NCBI GenBank assembly: GCA_021161425.1
Contig: JAGHAQ010000033.1
Span: 1 to 35,693, forward strand
DNA: 35,693 bases
Reading direction: 5' to 3'
Source of the DNA: Candidatus Tharpella sp.
GTDB lineage: Bacteria > Desulfobacterota > Anaeroferrophillalia > Anaeroferrophillales > Tharpellaceae
Made by a program: the position numbers and the translations under genes. Below the pieces are notes generated by a model. It had not been told where the DNA came from and ran no database searches. It saw nothing but the letters and a program-made list of their open reading frames with translations. Positions 1 to 14,522 of the stretch are shown in pieces; position 1 is the first letter of the stretch; each line of letters begins with the position of its first letter.

Positions 1-1122
1 GCCGGCTGCCACTTAAAGATGTACGAAATCAACGGTGAAACCCGCAAACTCAAACGCCGAGGATTTGATGAGATGGTCGAGTCCTGTTCCGACTGCCATG
101 GTCCCGAATATGACGATATGGCCAGACACTGGAAGGAAGTGCTTGATCAGGAACTGGCCAAAACCGCCAAGACCTTGCGTGAGACCAATCAATTACTAAG
201 CAACAGGAAGTCACCCGAGGGCTCGCGACTTTATGAAATTGCGCAAAGTAATTTCATTTTCGCCAAAAACAGTCACGGCATCCACAATATCGATTTCGCC
301 CTGAGCCTTCTGGCTGACTGTCGGGAACGCTGTGAAAAAGCCAAAACGATTGTCGACCCGGCTTACAAAGCCGCCAGCATAACTTCACCTTCGGGCTGCA
401 CCGACCTCTGCCACAACTGTGTCGAATGCATCGAAACCAAACCTGTACCATTTGGTGAAGTTGTATTCCCGCATGATGTTCATGTCGTCGACGAAGGCCT
501 TGAATGCCTTGAATGCCACAGTCCACGCGACCAACATGGCCAGACAATCCTTAAAAACTGTAAAGATTGTCACCATGGTTACGGCATGGGCGCGGTCGAG
601 TGTGCCGACTGCCATATCGCCACTTTCAACCTTTACAAAGGCCAGAACGCCTGCGATGAAACCAGCTGCGATGTGCGTGGCACAGCCAACTCAATGGCCG
701 CAGATGTCGGTTGCAAGGATTGTCATACCCAAGTCGAAGAGGGACAAGTAATGACCGATACGGTCCTCAAACAGGCCTGCATCGAATGCCACGATGACGA
801 TCCGGCTTACGGTAAAATGGTCGATGAATGGCGCCAGAAGCTTGAATCATTGAATATTAAAAACCTCCAAACCCAGCTCGCCCAGGTTCAGAAATCGGTT
901 CTCTTGGCGATTCGGAATGGCGCTTACACCTACGACACCCAGGATTTGATTAACAATGCCGATAAAAACCTTAAGTTGCTTGTCAACGGCAACCCGATCC
1001 ACAACCTTGAGTTCGCAAAGGATCTGGCGGCTAAAGTCAGAAATTTAACCGAGAAAGCCCGCAAACAGTTACAACAGCACAGCACCATCAAAACCCTGAG
1101 CAACAAGACGTACAAGTTTTGA
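1..1122 (+). CDS. Multiheme cytochrome c, 5'-truncated by the window edge
   Basis: The reading frame is open from base 1 and its first residues read A-G-C-H, the tail of a CxxCH heme motif whose first Cys lies outside the window, so the gene begins upstream and the Met at 19 is not the start. Six complete CxxCH motifs follow (CSDCH, CLECH, CKDCH, CADCH, CKDCH, CIECH), giving at least seven c hemes in 373 visible residues. A cluster of extra Cys without CH (around residues 130-140) may hold another, atypical site. The N- and C-terminal parts resemble each other: a CxxCH, then a long helical stretch, then an I-H-N-[IL]-[DE]-F-A motif, suggesting internal duplication. Periplasmic electron transfer is inferred from the heme motifs. 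No signal peptide can be seen because the start is missing. The stop is followed 35 bases later by a strong terminator. Confidence 0.9.
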   Translation, partial: AGCHLKMYEINGETRKLKRRGFDEMVESCSDCHGPEYDDMARHWKEVLDQELAKTAKTLRETNQLLSNRKSPEGSRLYEIAQSNFIFAKNSHGIHNIDFALSLLADCRERCEKAKTIVDPAYKAASITSPSGCTDLCHNCVECIETKPVPFGEVVFPHDVHVVDEGLECLECHSPRDQHGQTILKNCKDCHHGYGMGAVECADCHIATFNLYKGQNACDETSCDVRGTANSMAADVGCKDCHTQVEEGQVMTDTVLKQACIECHDDDPAYGKMVDEWRQKLESLNIKNLQTQLAQVQKSVLLAIRNGAYTYDTQDLINNADKNLKLLVNGNPIHNLEFAKDLAAKVRNLTEKARKQLQQHSTIKTLSNKTYKF

Positions 1123-2031: not shown

Positions 2032-3510
2032 TTAATCTTTACAATCTACACACCCACAAACATTGTGAAAATAAGTCTCTCGATTGAATTCCGGGCTTCT
2101 CTCCTCGATATGACAATCCAGACATATCTTAACTCCAGACGGCTCTTTGACCGTCTTCAGCTGACCTTTTGCCGCGACATGCAGACGACCGGGACCATGG
2201 CAGGATTCACACTGAACGTTGGCATAATGACCAGCCTGGCTAACATCAAAAAAGCCCCCCTTCTCTCTATAACCTACAGTATGACACCTGACACAATCTT
2301 CGTCGAAATGCTTCTCATGCTCGACCAACGAGTGATAAGCCCGGGCATGGGGGGTCTTTAACCAGCGTTGATAGTGGCCAGGATGACATTGAGCGCAGGC
2401 TTTGGCAAAAACATAACTGTTCTCCTGCTTGTTTGCCAGTTCACCCATGGCTATCGATGAAGTCGCGCTAACCTGTTGTAAAACACTCAATTCAGCCTCG
2501 ACATTGGCCTTTTGCAAGCGACTCAATTCATTCTCTACTGCCTCAACCATGGAACCAATCTCGGGATGATCAGGAATAGTTTTTAAAAGAGGAAAAAAGT
2601 GATTTAAAAGAAAGAGCTTTTCACCAACCGTTTTACCCTTCATGCGGGTCGCTAACGGTAACGATTCAACCCCGGTCGTATCGAGAAAGCTGACATCAAG
2701 CCGCCCAACCCTTTTCCCGCCGCGTTCGACGTGGGCAATATAAGTCTCCTTAACCAGAATCGGCAAGGATATACGGCTCTTCTTACTGATACCGACAATC
2801 AGATCGATCGGAATACCGTGCTGGGCTAAGCGCCGACAAGAACTAATTTTCAGATTAGTCAGCAGAACCACATAATCAACCCCTTCTTTTTTGAGGTGGG
2901 CCGTGATCTCTTCAGCTTTCTCCATGGGATTTACGATCTTGAATTTATCATGACCGGGAATTTTTTTAAGTTTGAGTTTGTCATCGCAAAGTCCCAGGAT
3001 TCCAACCTTGATCCCATTAACTGACTTGATTATTGATGGCGTAAAGATATATTTATCATGTTTATCGAGAATATTTCCGGAAAGAAAAGGAAAGTTGGCT
3101 GATTTCTCTTTTTTGAGCAGGTAATCTACCCCAAGGGAAAGATCATAAGCCCCGATATTTATCGCATCACAACCCATCTTATTGTAGGATGAAATAATCA
3201 GATCAGCCCGTAATTCACCGGCAACAACCTTTTTAGGCCTCAAGGCTTGCCGCCGAAACAAAAGGTTGCCACCATTAAGAACCAGGTAAGGAGTTCCTTC
3301 CTTACTTAATTCGTCGAGAAAAGTTGCACGCTTGGCCAGACCGCCACGCGGTTTTTTATGTCAACCACAAGGAATTATAGCACCCCTTTCATCCGACGAG
3401 TAGACAATCGAAAAACCTTTGCCCTCGACAGCGGAAAAAGCGGCAGAGACAACTAATTTTCCCGATAAGGCATACACCAGGAGAACTAAACTAATGATAA
3501 TTTTTTTCAT
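2032..3510 (-). CDS. Predicted selenoprotein: metallophosphatase-fold / tetraheme cytochrome c554-like fusion
   Basis: Read from ATG 3510 to 2032 with the TGA at 3361-3363 decoded as selenocysteine, the product is 492 residues. Residues 1-24 form a Sec signal peptide. Residues 32-300 follow the UshA-like metallophosphatase order: YSSD, then PCG-Sec followed by HKKPRGGLAKRAT, then LNGGN, NIGAYD and LIVGIS. From about residue 370 come four CxxCH motifs (CAQCH, CVRCH, CESCH, CLDCH), as in cytochrome c554, and a C-terminal CGCVDCKD. Family members I recall have PCGC at this place, so Sec replaces the second Cys. Starting at the internal ATG 3261 would leave a 409-residue heme protein with no export signal, which argues that the upstream part belongs to it. 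The putative metal ligands look lost. AAGGA lies 10 bases before the ATG. A frameshift-free nonsense mutation is the alternative. Confidence 0.78.
3329..3350 (-). promoter_or_regulatory. Bacterial SECIS hairpin downstream of the UGA
   Basis: In the mRNA sense the element reads CGCGTGGC, loop GGTCTG, GCCAAGCG. It pairs as 4 bp, one G-A mismatch, then 3 bp. The loop begins 19 bases after the UGA and opens with GG. Published rules for bacterial SECIS elements ask for a loop 16-37 bases after UGA with a G in its first two positions. The loop GGUCU is also that of the E. coli fdhF SECIS recognised by SelB. It lies inside the coding region, as bacterial SECIS elements do. Confidence 0.72.
3361..3363 (-). 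other. In-frame UGA, predicted selenocysteine codon 50
   Basis: On the minus strand the codon order is CCT TGT GGT TGA CAT AAA AAA CCG, encoding P-C-G-Sec-H-K-K-P. It is the only stop in the frame from 3510 to 2034. Both sides are convincingly coding: a signal peptide before it and the continuation of a conserved-looking GGLAKRAT stretch after it. Confidence 0.75.
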
Positions 3511-3780: not shown

Positions 3781-5700
3781 TCAATGTGAGGAGAAGAACA
3801 ATCCGACAAAGATAAAGACCAGCATAACCATTCCAAGCGCTATAAACACTAAACCAATTCCACTTGAAAACAGGTTCGTAATGATGTCAGGGCCTTCAGT
3901 TTTGAACTTATCAAGCCGGCCTTCTTTTTCAAGCCTATCATAGTGTAGCGGTTTTTCTTCAAGAAATTTGTATTTCTGAAACTTGCCGGTGAAGATAACC
4001 GTATCCATCGGAAACTTTGACGGTATAAAGTGCGTGTTGAAAAAGTGGACGGTAAAAATGAATCCGGCCGCCAACATGGCTTCGTCGGAGTGAATGATAA
4101 TCGCTATATTGAAAATCCATCCGGGAAGAATGCGGGCCGTCACATCCGGCGCCCAAAGGATTATTCCTGATAATCCGATTGCAAACATACCCCAGAAAAC
4201 CGCGATAAAGTCAAATTTTTCCCAATATGTCCACCTGTCAAACTTAGGCATGGGTCCCATGCCGACAAACCATCTTCCCATTCCTGTAAAGTCATGCCAG
4301 TCCTTTATACGGGGGCACAGTGAATCGGGACCGAAAAGCCTTTTCCAGAAGGTCTCTCCATTCTTTTTATCGAACAGAAAACGGATACAAAGGAGAAAGG
4401 CGATTAAAAACAGTACAATCAGGATGGCGGCCATAAAGCGGTGGATGAATCCGGCCGCGCTGGCACCACCAAGAAATCCGACTACGGCCTGAGCCCACGG
4501 GGCACCACTGAATTTCAGCGGGAGTCCGCTCAGAACGAGGCCAAAAAATGAGACTATCAGAATAAAATGCATGAACCTTTGGGATACCGGAAACCTGGTA
4601 TAATACTCACCCGGATTTTCAATTTTCGCAATATGGGGATCAATGATGTATCCCTTAGACCGCAAGCGCTGATTCGCCCAGTAGGTTTTACGCCACCAGA
4701 GTAGGGTGTGGACCCAGAAAAAGACAAAGACCGCCACAAGAAGCGTGGTCATAGTCACAACTGTCCAGAAGAGAACAGGGTTTTCCTTTCTGTCATGAAA
4801 GTCAGCGTGGGCTTTGTAAGTGACAAAGTTAGCATTGGCCTTGGGATGGCACTTGCCACAGTTTTTCACCAGGTTATCGGGATGAATAGCAGATTTAGGA
4901 TCTGATTGAGGAAGAATGTTGTGATAAGTATGACAGTCTGCGCAACCGGCGACGTGGGTTGCATAACCGAGTTTCTGAATTTTACCATGATAGGTATGCT
5001 CATAGGTGTCAACCACTGTCGTTGAAAGATTGTTGCGTTTCATCATCTCCTTGTCACCATGACAACGGATACAAGTCACATTATAAAAAATCCTGGCTTC
5101 TTCGGGATAGCGATCGAGGTCAGTATGCAAACGACGGGTATTGTGCAACCCGTGGCAGTCAGAGCAAACCGCGGAATCGGTATTCCCCCTGAGAGCCGCA
5201 GCATCATGCCCACTCGCGACGTAGTCATCATTCTCATGGCATACCGTGCACTTCTCAATGATCTTGGTTTTGTCGCGGTTCCAGATCCCGGCAGTATGAA
5301 TGTCAGTGTGACATGCACTACAATCCATATCCTGGTGTAGTTTATGGTAGCTGGTTTCGTACTCTGCCGCGATTCTTTCGTGGCAGATAGAACAATCAAC
5401 AGCCCTGGGCCGGTGAATGCCTTCGGCATGTTTTTCGATATCGATTATATCCACATGGCAGGAAGTACAGGAGTTTGATCCGTGACTGGAATCAGCAAAT
5501 TCTTCTGCGGAAAAGGAATCATGGCATTCCAGGCACTGATTTTCGTCGTAAATTTCTTCATGTTTTACATCAAGGGTCACGGTTTTTGAAAATACGGTTG
5601 TCGGGCCGAAAACCAGTGCTGAAAAAAAGATGAACAAACATGCTGACCAGAAAACATTTTTCCGGGAAATCGGGGGCAGAACCTGGAAATCGAGTTGCAT
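3781..5700 (-). CDS. CbcL-like nine-heme cytochrome c / diheme cytochrome b fusion (copy 1)
   Basis: Encodes 639 residues; the ATG is preceded by GGAG at 8 bases. An N-terminal hydrophobic segment (about residues 14-38) acts as signal or anchor. Nine CxxCH motifs follow between residues 56 and 285 (CLECH, CTSCH, CSICH, CSACH, CTVCH, CSDCH, CIRCH, CADCH, CGKCH). After residue 305 come several membrane helices with conserved His (HTLLWW, FMHFIL, FIHRFM, IIHSDE, FTVHFF), which fit b-heme ligands of the Ni/Fe-hydrogenase cytochrome b type. This nine-c-heme plus cytochrome b layout is that of CbcL of Geobacter sulfurreducens, an inner-membrane menaquinol oxidase needed for low-potential acceptors. 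Electron flow from quinol to periplasm is inferred from that family. A second copy lies at 12639-14522 on the other strand. Confidence 0.9.
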
Positions 5701-6989: not shown

Positions 6990-8036
6990 CTATTTTCCGA
7001 GTCTATTTTTGCGGGTCAAAAATCTCAAGAAACCATGTCCAAACGGCAGAGCCAGTCCTCCACATATAATCAACAGGCCGATTATATTCAGTAAAAAACT
7101 CCTGGTTGCACCAATGAGATAAAAATCGGGTGAGTTATTCAATATTGACAGAACAGCCCCCTCTTCTACTTCAATTCTTTTAAAAGTGCCAATCTCGGTT
7201 GGCAGAGCAACCACACTTTTCTTCATCGATTCCGGACCTGAACAGTGACAGAAACAACAATCCCAACGATTATCAAAGGTTGTCAAGGTGTGCGAAGCAC
7301 ACTCAGAAGAAAGCCTCCCCTGTAAACGAAAAGACTTATATTTTGGATTCTTATTAAAGACCTTCATTTCAGCCAGAGAGATAAAATCATCGCCATCCAA
7401 ATCGACCAGAGACTGAACATTTTTACCCATGGCCAACTTTTCAAGTTCATTATATTCGACAAATTCAACGTCGGCAAGCCTTGCCACATTAGTATTTTTA
7501 ACTATATACCAAACAACCATCTGACACTCGGAGTCAGTATGACATGAAATACAGGGGAGCATTGCAAGGTGTAACTTAGTTTGCGGCAACCACTCATTAT
7601 GAGCCTTGTATACATCTTCGGCATCATGGCAACCTGCACATTGATCATTCATATCAGCACAGCAGACATCAGCAAAGCCAAAGGCCTTGTGAGGGTTATG
7701 ACAATCTCCACATTCTGCATTATCAGAATGAGTCCCAGCCTGATACTCTTCCATGATATCTTCGTGACAATCCACGCAGCCCACCAGTGATGGAATCAAT
7801 CCGTCATCCGGGTGTTCATCGGAAACTCCTTCGTGACAACCTGTACAACCTAACTCAGCATGATCCGTTATACCGTACGAAACCTGATCTATAAATAAAT
7901 TAGCTGCGACAGAATCTTCATCGCCGTGACAACCTAGGCAATCATCATCATCCATACTATACCCGGAAACCGGCACCGCAAAGAGCATAACGATGATACA
8001 TAGCTGCAGAAAACGTGATTTTTTAGTGCTTGGCAT
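6990..8036 (-). CDS. Heptaheme membrane-anchored cytochrome c with EF-hand
   Basis: Encodes 348 residues; AAGGAG lies 6 bases before the ATG. A signal peptide ends near residue 26. Seven CxxCH motifs are visible: CLGCH, CTGCH, CVDCH, CGDCH, CAGCH, CISCH in the first half and CCFCH near residue 262. Between the sixth and seventh is a textbook EF-hand calcium loop (D-L-D-G-D-D-F-I-S-L-A-E, bases 7403-7368). A hydrophobic helix near residues 310-332 followed by basic residues anchors the C-terminus in the inner membrane. It is probably the electron-accepting partner of the cytochrome b encoded downstream. The substrate or acceptor is unknown. Confidence 0.85.
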   Translation of the reverse strand: MPSTKKSRFLQLCIIVMLFAVPVSGYSMDDDDCLGCHGDEDSVAANLFIDQVSYGITDHAELGCTGCHEGVSDEHPDDGLIPSLVGCVDCHEDIMEEYQAGTHSDNAECGDCHNPHKAFGFADVCCADMNDQCAGCHDAEDVYKAHNEWLPQTKLHLAMLPCISCHTDSECQMVVWYIVKNTNVARLADVEFVEYNELEKLAMGKNVQSLVDLDGDDFISLAEMKVFNKNPKYKSFRLQGRLSSECASHTLTTFDNRWDCCFCHCSGPESMKKSVVALPTEIGTFKRIEVEEGAVLSILNNSPDFYLIGATRSFLLNIIGLLIICGGLALPFGHGFLRFLTRKNRLGK

Positions 8037-8040
8037 ATTT

Positions 8041-8222
8041 TTCTCCTTTAACTAGAGACTTATATTCTTATTCTCTTTTCCAACGATCATAGTCTGCGAA
8101 AACCAGTCAACGCAGCCACCCCGAGCAAAGCCACTATAAATAGATGCTCCATCTAACCAGGGAATAACGAAGACCACGCAACCTCCTAAACATGTAGTTA
8201 TAAATAATCTGCTCGACTTACT
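8041..8222 (-). other. Spacer with a possible 42-codon reading frame
   Basis: Between the 57-residue peptide gene and the heptaheme cytochrome gene, the minus strand has a good AGGAGG four bases before a GTG (VVFVIPWLDG...), open for 42 codons, and in another frame a 21-codon ATG frame (MEHLFIVALLGVAALTGFRR) that looks like a single membrane helix. Neither has enough signal to be called a gene. Confidence 0.2.
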
Positions 8223-8396
8223 TTAATTTTGCATCCCCTTCAGGATCTGAAGTACGATGATCAGGCCACAGATTCCCAAAAATACCCAGGTTAAAAAAAG
8301 GCTGTGATCTTCCCTGACAGCTGTTTCCGCCATGACAGAAGTGGCTGTACTTAAAAAAGTTATGGTCAATACGCTAATAAAAGTTTTTATTTTCAT
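8223..8396 (-). CDS. 57-residue single-span membrane peptide of the cytochrome operon
   Basis: Starts at ATG 8396 with GAGGAG 6 bases upstream and ends with TAA at 8223. The product begins MKIKTFISVLTITFLSTATS, a signal peptide that could be cut after V-M-A, followed by a short polar stretch and one membrane helix (LFLTWVFLGICGLIIVLQIL), ending KGMQN. It has no heme motif. It is the first gene of the cytochrome operon and lies inside the flanking inverted repeats. It may be an assembly factor or small subunit; I do not recognise a family. Confidence 0.65.
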   Translation of the reverse strand: MKIKTFISVLTITFLSTATSVMAETAVREDHSLFLTWVFLGICGLIIVLQILKGMQN

Positions 8397-8467
8397 GCTT
8401 TGCTCCTCAAAATATTTTAGAGTTTCACTGCCTTACAACATCAATTTACCACAAAAAAAATACTCCT

Positions 8468-8608
8468 TTACTTGTTCAGCCGAAGGGGCTCGGCATCGTA
8501 GAATATAAACAACTGTTACGCACCCTCGACCACCGTACAAATCTCGTCGCGATCTTCCACGTCAACCAGACTGAGAACGTGATAGAAAATTTTCTCCGGC
8601 AAGTGCGC
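8468..8608 (-). pseudogene. Possible degraded reading frame, unidentified
   Basis: One minus-strand frame reads protein-like over 46 codons with a single internal TAA (EKIFYHVLSLVDVEDRDEI, then after the stop QLFIFYDAEPLRLNK). The preceding frame (SALAGEN) could join it by a one-base shift. The composition looks like real protein rather than random sequence, but I cannot name a family. Confidence 0.22.
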
Positions 8609-8625
8609 TCAACAGGATAATTATA

Positions 8626-8695
8626 ATTTTGTGCCCAATTACACTTTCTTTCCTCGTAATGCAACAGTTTTATTTTGTATATGTAATACTACCCC
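8626..8695. repeat. Right arm of 70-bp inverted repeat flanking the cytochrome cassette
   Basis: This is the inverted partner of 5927-5996, with six mismatches in 70. On the minus strand this arm reads toward the cytochrome operon, about 230 bases before its first gene, so it could also carry its promoter; an AT-rich stretch (TATTACATATACAAAATAAA) is conserved in both arms. Confidence 0.85.
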
Positions 8696-8956
8696 GAAAA
8701 ATTCAAAAGCGGCGTCCCGAACTTGGCCCAACATCCAGAGCCTGTTGAAATCATTGGATCTTCAGCTTTCACAGGAATAATGCCCTTGTAAAATACAACT
8801 TGACCTTCGGCCTAAACACAGTGACGAGATACCGGAATTACAGTCCTCATTCTCATATTTGACAAAACTTCAGTTGTTGATTAAAAGCAAGCTACGGTTC
8901 CAACATTTGATTATCCCCCCATAAACAGCAAACTATATGTACCTAAGGAGCAGAAC

Positions 8957-12638: not shown

Positions 12639-14522
12639 ATGAAAGCTCATAAAGAATCCTTCCGCTTACCCCTTTTGTTACTGCTGATTGTCACATTCAT
12701 TCTCGGAACTGGAATCAGTAAAAAGTCGTTGGCCAAACAGGCCGATCCTGAAAATATCTGCTTGGAATGTATTTCGGTCGACCAATGTCTTGAATGCCAT
12801 GATGAAATAGATTCCGGGACCTTTGCGGCATCCGTCCATGGAGCCAACGCCTGCACCAGTTGCCACCGTGATATCTGGGATCTGGAGAAACATGCCGAAT
12901 GTGAAGTTCCCATGCAGCCGGTCAACTGCGGTTTCTGCCATCGGAATGCCGCTAAACAGCATGCCCAATCGGTTCATATTGATAACGATGTCTGCTGTAC
13001 GGATTGTCACGCCAACATCCATGACTTGGCCTCTTTCATGGATGACAAAGGCAAATCAGTCCAGATGTGTAGCGGCTGTCACGATAACGCCGACTACATG
13101 CTGAGCATCCACGGCCAGAGCCTGATGACCGGCAATCCCGATGCTCCCTCCTGCGCCGACTGCCATGGATTACACAATATTATCGAACTTAAAGTTAATG
13201 ATAAAAATTCGGCAAGTGCCCTGAGAGCCCATAAATTCAGTATCTCCAGTTGCAAGCAGTGCCATGACAATAAAGAGATGATGGTACGCAACAACTTAAG
13301 CATCCACTCCTTTACATCATACCGCCAGGAGTTCCACGGCAGGGTTGAACATTTAGGTCGTACAAGTGCGGTTGCCGGTTGTGCCGACTGTCACACCGCC
13401 CACAAACAGCTACCTATCAATAATCCAGAATCATCCATCTCAACTGAAGGCCTGATTACAACTTGTGGCCAATGTCATAATCAGGTAAGCGCAAATTTCG
13501 TCAAATACGCCCCTCATGCCACCCATCACGACCGCCAGAACTATCCGGTTCTGTACTGGACCTTTATAGCGATGGCTGCCCCCCTATGCGGTACCTTTGT
13601 CATCTTCTTACTCCACACCCTGTTGTGGCTGATTCGTAACTACATTGAAAAGAGCAAGCTCCGCCGTCAGGGTATCTTCTACGACACCTACAACCCCAAG
13701 GTTTTCTATCGGCGTTTCACCTTACTGGAAAAGGTCCTCCACTTCATCCTGATGGTCAGCTTCCTGGGTCTGGTTTTCTCCGGCCTGCCCTTGAAATTTA
13801 TCGATGCCCCCCTTGGAGCGATTGGTCTCTCGCAAATCCTGGGTGGTCCGCAGATGGCCGGTCCGATCCATCGCGGGTGCGCGGTTCTCACCTTCGTCTA
13901 TTTAATTATCACGATTGCCTGGAACATCTATTTTCTGTTCATTAAACCAACCGGTGAAAATTTCTTCGAAAAACTTTTCGGACCCGATTCACTCTTTCCC
14001 CGCATCAAAGACGGACGGGATTTTGTCGATATGTGCAAGTGGTTTTTGGGTGCCGGAAAAGGACCTAAATTCGACCGTTGGACCTATTGGGAAAAATTTG
14101 ACTTCCTCGTCGTCTTATGGAGCATGTTTGCCATCGGTTTTTCCGGCCTGATGCTCTGGATACCTGAATTTTTTGCCCAATTCATGCCCGGCTGGGCTTT
14201 CAACGTGGCCATCATCGTCCACTCCGACATAGCCCTGCTGGCCGCGGCCTTTATCTTTACAATCCATTTCTTCAACGCCCACATCCGACCGGAGAAATTC
14301 CCCATGGATCAGGTCATCTTCACCGGGGTCACCAGCGGTTATGAGATGGAAAGAGAGCGTCCAGCCCAATTTGAGCGCCTCAGGGAAAAGGGCCTGCTCG
14401 ACAAATACAAAGCCCGCTACCCCGGCGTTCTTGCCGGAGCCATCGGTCAAATAATCGGCATTACCGGCGTCTCTATCGGCGTCCTTTGTCTTTTTTTGAT
14501 CATCTGGGGTTTCTTCAGATAA
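12639..14522 (+). CDS. CbcL-like nine-heme cytochrome c / diheme cytochrome b fusion (copy 2)
   Basis: Encodes 627 residues. An N-terminal hydrophobic segment (residues 10-32) is followed by nine CxxCH motifs (CLECH, CTSCH, CGFCH, CTDCH, CSGCH, CADCH, CKQCH, CADCH, CGQCH) and a C-terminal multi-helix cytochrome b domain from about residue 300. Long stretches of the b part match copy 1 (for example [35 protein letters not shown]), so the two are paralogues with the same architecture as Geobacter CbcL. Likely role: menaquinol oxidation and transfer to periplasmic hemes at a particular potential. The ribosome site AAGGA is 12 bases away, which is long. It sits alone between two terminators. Confidence 0.9.
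   Translation: MKAHKESFRLPLLLLLIVTFILGTGISKKSLAKQADPENICLECISVDQCLECHDEIDSGTFAASVHGANACTSCHRDIWDLEKHAECEVPMQPVNCGFCHRNAAKQHAQSVHIDNDVCCTDCHANIHDLASFMDDKGKSVQMCSGCHDNADYMLSIHGQSLMTGNPDAPSCADCHGLHNIIELKVNDKNSASALRAHKFSISSCKQCHDNKEMMVRNNLSIHSFTSYRQEFHGRVEHLGRTSAVAGCADCHTAHKQLPINNPESSISTEGLITTCGQCHNQVSANFVKYAPHATHHDRQNYPVLYWTFIAMAAPLCGTFVIFLLHTLLWLIRNYIEKSKLRRQGIFYDTYNPKVFYRRFTLLEKVLHFILMVSFLGLVFSGLPLKFIDAPLGAIGLSQILGGPQMAGPIHRGCAVLTFVYLIITIAWNIYFLFIKPTGENFFEKLFGPDSLFPRIKDGRDFVDMCKWFLGAGKGPKFDRWTYWEKFDFLVVLWSMFAIGFSGLMLWIPEFFAQFMPGWAFNVAIIVHSDIALLAAAFIFTIHFFNAHIRPEKFPMDQVIFTGVTSGYEMERERPAQFERLREKGLLDKYKARYPGVLAGAIGQIIGITGVSIGVLCLFLIIWGFFR

Follow-up and report, generated by a model that had tools for sequence, protein, structure and literature searches.

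A predicted UshA-like PCGU selenoprotein with a tetraheme cytochrome domain in Candidatus Tharpella sp.: family membership, decay of the metal site and a conserved multiheme neighbourhood

On a contig of Candidatus Tharpella sp. (JAGHAQ010000033.1, assembly GCA_021161425.1), analysed over 35,693 nucleotides and hereafter called the window, one gene is interrupted by a TGA codon in its own reading frame. This raises the question of whether the codon is read as selenocysteine (Sec) and, if so, what kind of protein is made from the two parts that it joins. Translation of the minus strand between 2032 and 3510 with TGA as U reproduces the single open frame of 492 residues that the initial annotation had described, in which codon 50 is the sole TGA, in the context IIPCGUHKKPRGGLAKR. 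The product has a hydrophobic, signal-like N-terminus and contains four CXXCH motifs. Under translation table 11 the same region shrinks to an ORF of 409 residues (2032-3261) that starts at TTG; standard annotation thus drops the signal peptide together with the redox motif, as had been anticipated, and is corrected by the present reading. The features discussed below are collected in Table 1.

Table 1. Coordinates of the gene, its predicted elements and its conserved neighbours within the window.
Feature	Position	Strand	Details
UshA-like selenoprotein (predicted) / tetraheme cytochrome gene	2032..3510	-	492 codons + stop, TGA read through; NF041198 375.9 bits
In-frame TGA, predicted Sec codon 50 of PCGU	3361..3363	-	Column in relatives 66 UGA : 17 Cys
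SECIS-like hairpin CGCGUGGC[GGUCUG]GCCAAGCG	3329..3350	-	Loop 18 nt past UGA; stem with one G-A mismatch
N-terminal hydrophobic signal-like segment, residues 1-29	3424..3510	-	From sequence; N-terminus of low confidence in the model
5'-nucleotidase/UshA-fold domain, metal-ligand positions mostly degraded	2671..3435	-	Profile matches, alignment, model, Foldseek
Helical linker + tetraheme cytochrome c554-type domain (CAQCH, CVRCH, CESCH, CLDCH)	2083..2613	-	PF13435 E 1.1e-13; second half of NF041198, profile 349-517
Contig-truncated multiheme cytochrome, conserved neighbour	1..1122	+	Complete homologues: 16 CXXCH, NrfH-like N-terminus
Multiheme c / cytochrome b561 fusion, conserved neighbour	3781..5700	-	Directly upstream, same strand; 9-heme

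The identity of the gene is set by its match to the NCBIfam model NF041198 (UshA_like_PCGU, 'UshA-like (seleno)protein'), which the product reaches with 375.9 bits against a curated cut-off of 275; a six-frame search with the two halves joined gives 368.1 bits. The 519 positions of this model comprise a nucleotidase-like part (profile 17-272) and a cytochrome part (349-517). The fusion therefore already lies inside a described family. The gene shares with NF041198 the whole-length match, the PCGU motif (PCGU or PCGC in the family) and both domains, differs from it in lineage-specific sequence, and has no feature that excludes membership. Two neighbouring families are more distant. NF049981 (UshA_like_Sel_2, CxxU) likewise has a Sec motif and an N-terminal domain of the UshA type, but its model of 262 positions matches the N-terminal part only and yields 34.3 bits where 140 are required. 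The multiheme cytochrome selenoprotein ExtKL (NF040886) shares Sec and a c554-type multiheme domain, but the product scores 10 bits with this model, whose cut-off is 250. UshA-like CxU selenoproteins have been tabulated since 2008, then as the COG0737 UshA-like CxU family (PMC2398784), again in 2022 (PMC9312934) and in 2026 under the name NF041198 (PMC13188914). The proposal of a new selenoprotein is therefore not supported; ExtKL, with its Cytochrome_C554 Pfam domain, is also found in published selenoproteome tables. The gene adds one member to a known family of uncharacterised function and is not a new kind.

Evidence for the decoding of the TGA comes first from relatives, for which 80 loci in named genomes were retrieved by searching with an alignment that begins after the Sec codon. 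In related genomes the gene likewise contains a single TGA. The column following CG is mostly UGA, with TGC or TGT in Gammaproteobacteria, Nitrospinia, Nitrospirota, a few Acidobacteria and others, so that the PCGC described for relatives was indeed recovered. In a tree of 83 rows, which as samples are not independent, the codon-50 column itself holds UGA in 66 rows and Cys in 17, and at least four to five Sec/Cys changes are needed; the replacement of an in-frame UGA by Cys in homologues is the pattern of a bacterial selenoprotein. The pattern behind the larger counts demanded CG followed by Sec or Cys and leaves exceptions such as L084 uncounted, and the column is unreadable in a few other loci. 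In L084 (115 onward) PSGR replaces PCGU, with both motif residues gone, which could represent an inactive form.

The nearest relative in the tree shows 74% identity, and the named Candidatus Tharpella aukensis (L072) is close as well, with 76% over 285 residues. One locus labelled as a Thermoplasmata archaeon (L066, QMSR01000145.1) holds this same bacterial gene, with 70% identity and the same neighbours, a probable binning error. Tandem, slightly overlapping pairs of NF041198-family genes occur in L091 (4472-5744 and 5733-7269), L106 and L111 (5979-7221 and about 7200-8734); in L091 and L111 one copy has PCGU and the other CGC, possibly a Sec/Cys heteromeric pair.

A second line of evidence is the RNA that would follow the UGA. 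The DNA 3' of the TGA reads CATAAAAAACCGCGTGGCGGTCTGGCCAAGCGT, where a stem formed by CGCGUGGC and GCCAAGCG presents the loop GGUCUG, whose first base is the 19th after the UGA, in agreement with the hairpin proposed initially. A GGU-loop hairpin of this quality follows only one of the 1393 TGA trinucleotides on both strands of the window, and when the same peptide is recoded with synonymous codons, an equally good one arises in only about 1% of cases. GGTCT stands 17-19 nt after TGA at three sites in the window, of which only that at 3361-3363 is inside a long open frame; the two other sites were checked and have no long open frame around them. Folded alone, the 42-nt stretch is not unusually stable (z = -0.39), so the evidence lies in loop, spacing and conservation and not in raw stability. 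No Rfam family calls the hairpin, as a scan of the window returned nothing at the gathering score.

Conservation of this GGU-type hairpin just 3' of the UGA is visible at several levels. The loop is placed at exactly 18 nt in 66 of 74 distinct UGA rows, and UGA rows form 5.5 of the 8 stem pairs as against 2.9 in Cys rows (p 7e-6, indicative only because the rows are related). In an alignment of 23 rows, standard pairs fill 80% of the cells, compared with 73% after shuffling and 19-46% when the pairing is slid, and pair 18-31 undergoes a double change from U-A to G-C in five rows. The RNAalifold consensus fold keeps just 3 pairs, and in many UGA members from other phyla the loop is not GGUCU.

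The machinery for Sec insertion was searched for in the genome itself, a 63%-complete MAG. A partial selA at a contig edge (467.5 bits) and a tRNA-Sec (69.7 bits, anticodon TCA, UCA in the RNA) were recovered; selB and selD were not found. The best selD match is weak (30 bits), and the best selB match (C73) was rejected, as its sequence looks like EF-Tu and not SelB. Among the 14 genomes searched, comprising this one and 13 relatives, selD exceeds the cut-off in 11 and selB in 10. The full-length selD genes of relatives themselves contain a TGA, and the same-genus selD of L039 and L040 is such a UGA-containing gene. Taken together, the conserved UGA/Cys column, the conserved SECIS-like hairpin, the tRNA-Sec and selA strongly support, at the level of sequence, the decoding of UGA50 as selenocysteine. 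That the gene is an NF041198 member whose UGA is read in this way can be held with high confidence.

What such a protein might do depends on its two domains. An AlphaFold2 model (pLDDT 85, pTM 0.83) finds its best Foldseek matches for the N-terminal domain among 5'-nucleotidases (E about 1e-21), and the C-terminal domain, with its four CXXCH motifs, matches PF13435 with 52.4 bits against a cut-off of 20.8; the initial description, in which a metallophosphatase (5'-nucleotidase) fold is joined to a tetraheme domain of the c554 type, is thereby upheld. The fold of the first domain is common to UshA and other 5'-nucleotidases (1USH, 2Z1A) and to SoxB, from which the product departs in its degraded metal-ligand motifs and in carrying a tetraheme cytochrome in place of their C-terminal domain. 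The second domain resembles the Nitrosomonas cytochrome c554 (1BVB, PF13435), here as a fused domain. The product would be exported and would have four c-hemes attached.

The neighbourhood of the gene points to further electron carriers. A 16-heme cytochrome and a c/b561 fusion lie beside it in nearly all loci of its own clade that have enough flank, and these conserved 16-heme and 9-heme/b561 neighbours suggest a quinone-linked periplasmic chain. The window contains two paralogous multiheme-c/b561 fusion genes, at 12639-14522 and 3781-5700; in L065, the closest relative, the gene next to that of the selenoprotein is nearer to the copy at 12639 (77% vs 48%). The terminal electron acceptor of the Tharpella clade was left unresolved in earlier work (PMC9213671).

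As the most likely reading, we infer a periplasmic redox enzyme in which Cys48-Gly-Sec50 would form the reactive centre, wired through the protein's own hemes to the quinone pool. The pair would trade electrons with a substrate, perhaps a sulfur, selenium or disulfide-type compound, and the electrons would pass to or from the tetraheme domain and, beyond it, the quinone-linked 16-heme and c/b561 cytochromes encoded alongside; we lean towards this mechanism. CxU motifs typically belong to redox chemistry of the thiol type, which would suit a selenoprotein that acts chiefly in carrying or repair, such as thiol-disulfide or peroxide handling, and not in respiration. Outside the Desulfobacterota-type clade, most loci have no other multiheme gene within the flanks seen, a distribution that fits such a role and from which it follows that the family does not depend on the module. 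The regular adjacency of both cytochromes in the own clade argues against a carrier or repair function, which we regard as rather unlikely.

Alternatively, the Sec reading may be right and the protein may have remained a metallo-dependent phosphoesterase or SoxB-like hydrolase, with the hemes as accessories. The fold itself would agree with this, as would the weak matches of SoxB profiles to family members (79.5 bits in L107, 47.5 bits for this product) and the Asp or His retained at individual ligand positions in some distant members. In the UshA family, the two metals are held by the motifs D-x-H, GD, GNHE, SH and GHxH. Aligned to 2Z1A, the product has D-x-R for D-x-H, GN for GD, GAYD for GNHE, TN for SH and GISKK for GGHSH, so that of the ligand set only the first Asp is retained. 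Among 33 diverse members, Asn is not one of the commonest residues at the Asn column of GNHE, and the His column of D-x-H is His in only 5. The cytochrome, moreover, occupies the place of the usual C-terminal 5'-nucleotidase domain, for which there is no Pfam match. These observations make a hydrolase improbable: because most metal-ligand positions are lost, the fold would no longer work as a metallophosphatase. While the ligand columns vary freely across the 33 members, Cys48 and Sec/Cys50 (PCGU being residues 47-50) are invariant, which suggests that the chemistry probably no longer centres on the metals but on a heme-coupled Cys-Sec pair.

There is hardly any likelihood that the TGA truly ends translation, stems from a sequencing error or marks a pseudogene lesion, with two unrelated ORFs in one frame, as the shortened ORF of standard calling would have it, since the same UGA recurs in its PCGU context across dozens of independent genomes, Cys takes its place in others and one curated model holds both halves.

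Altogether, the selenoprotein itself is no discovery; what is added here is that the metal ligands of the family are largely lost and that one clade has a conserved multiheme/quinone module, and these two observations give a concrete, testable hypothesis of function. We tentatively consider that the family could constitute a class of redox enzymes in its own right, serving respiration or detoxification, in which a disabled metallophosphatase pocket would house a Cys-Sec pair wired to the tetraheme domain. In Tharpella-like bacteria, the enzyme could then join the 16-heme and c/b561 cytochromes in an electron-accepting or sulfur-transforming module, which, if true, would be an overlooked one.
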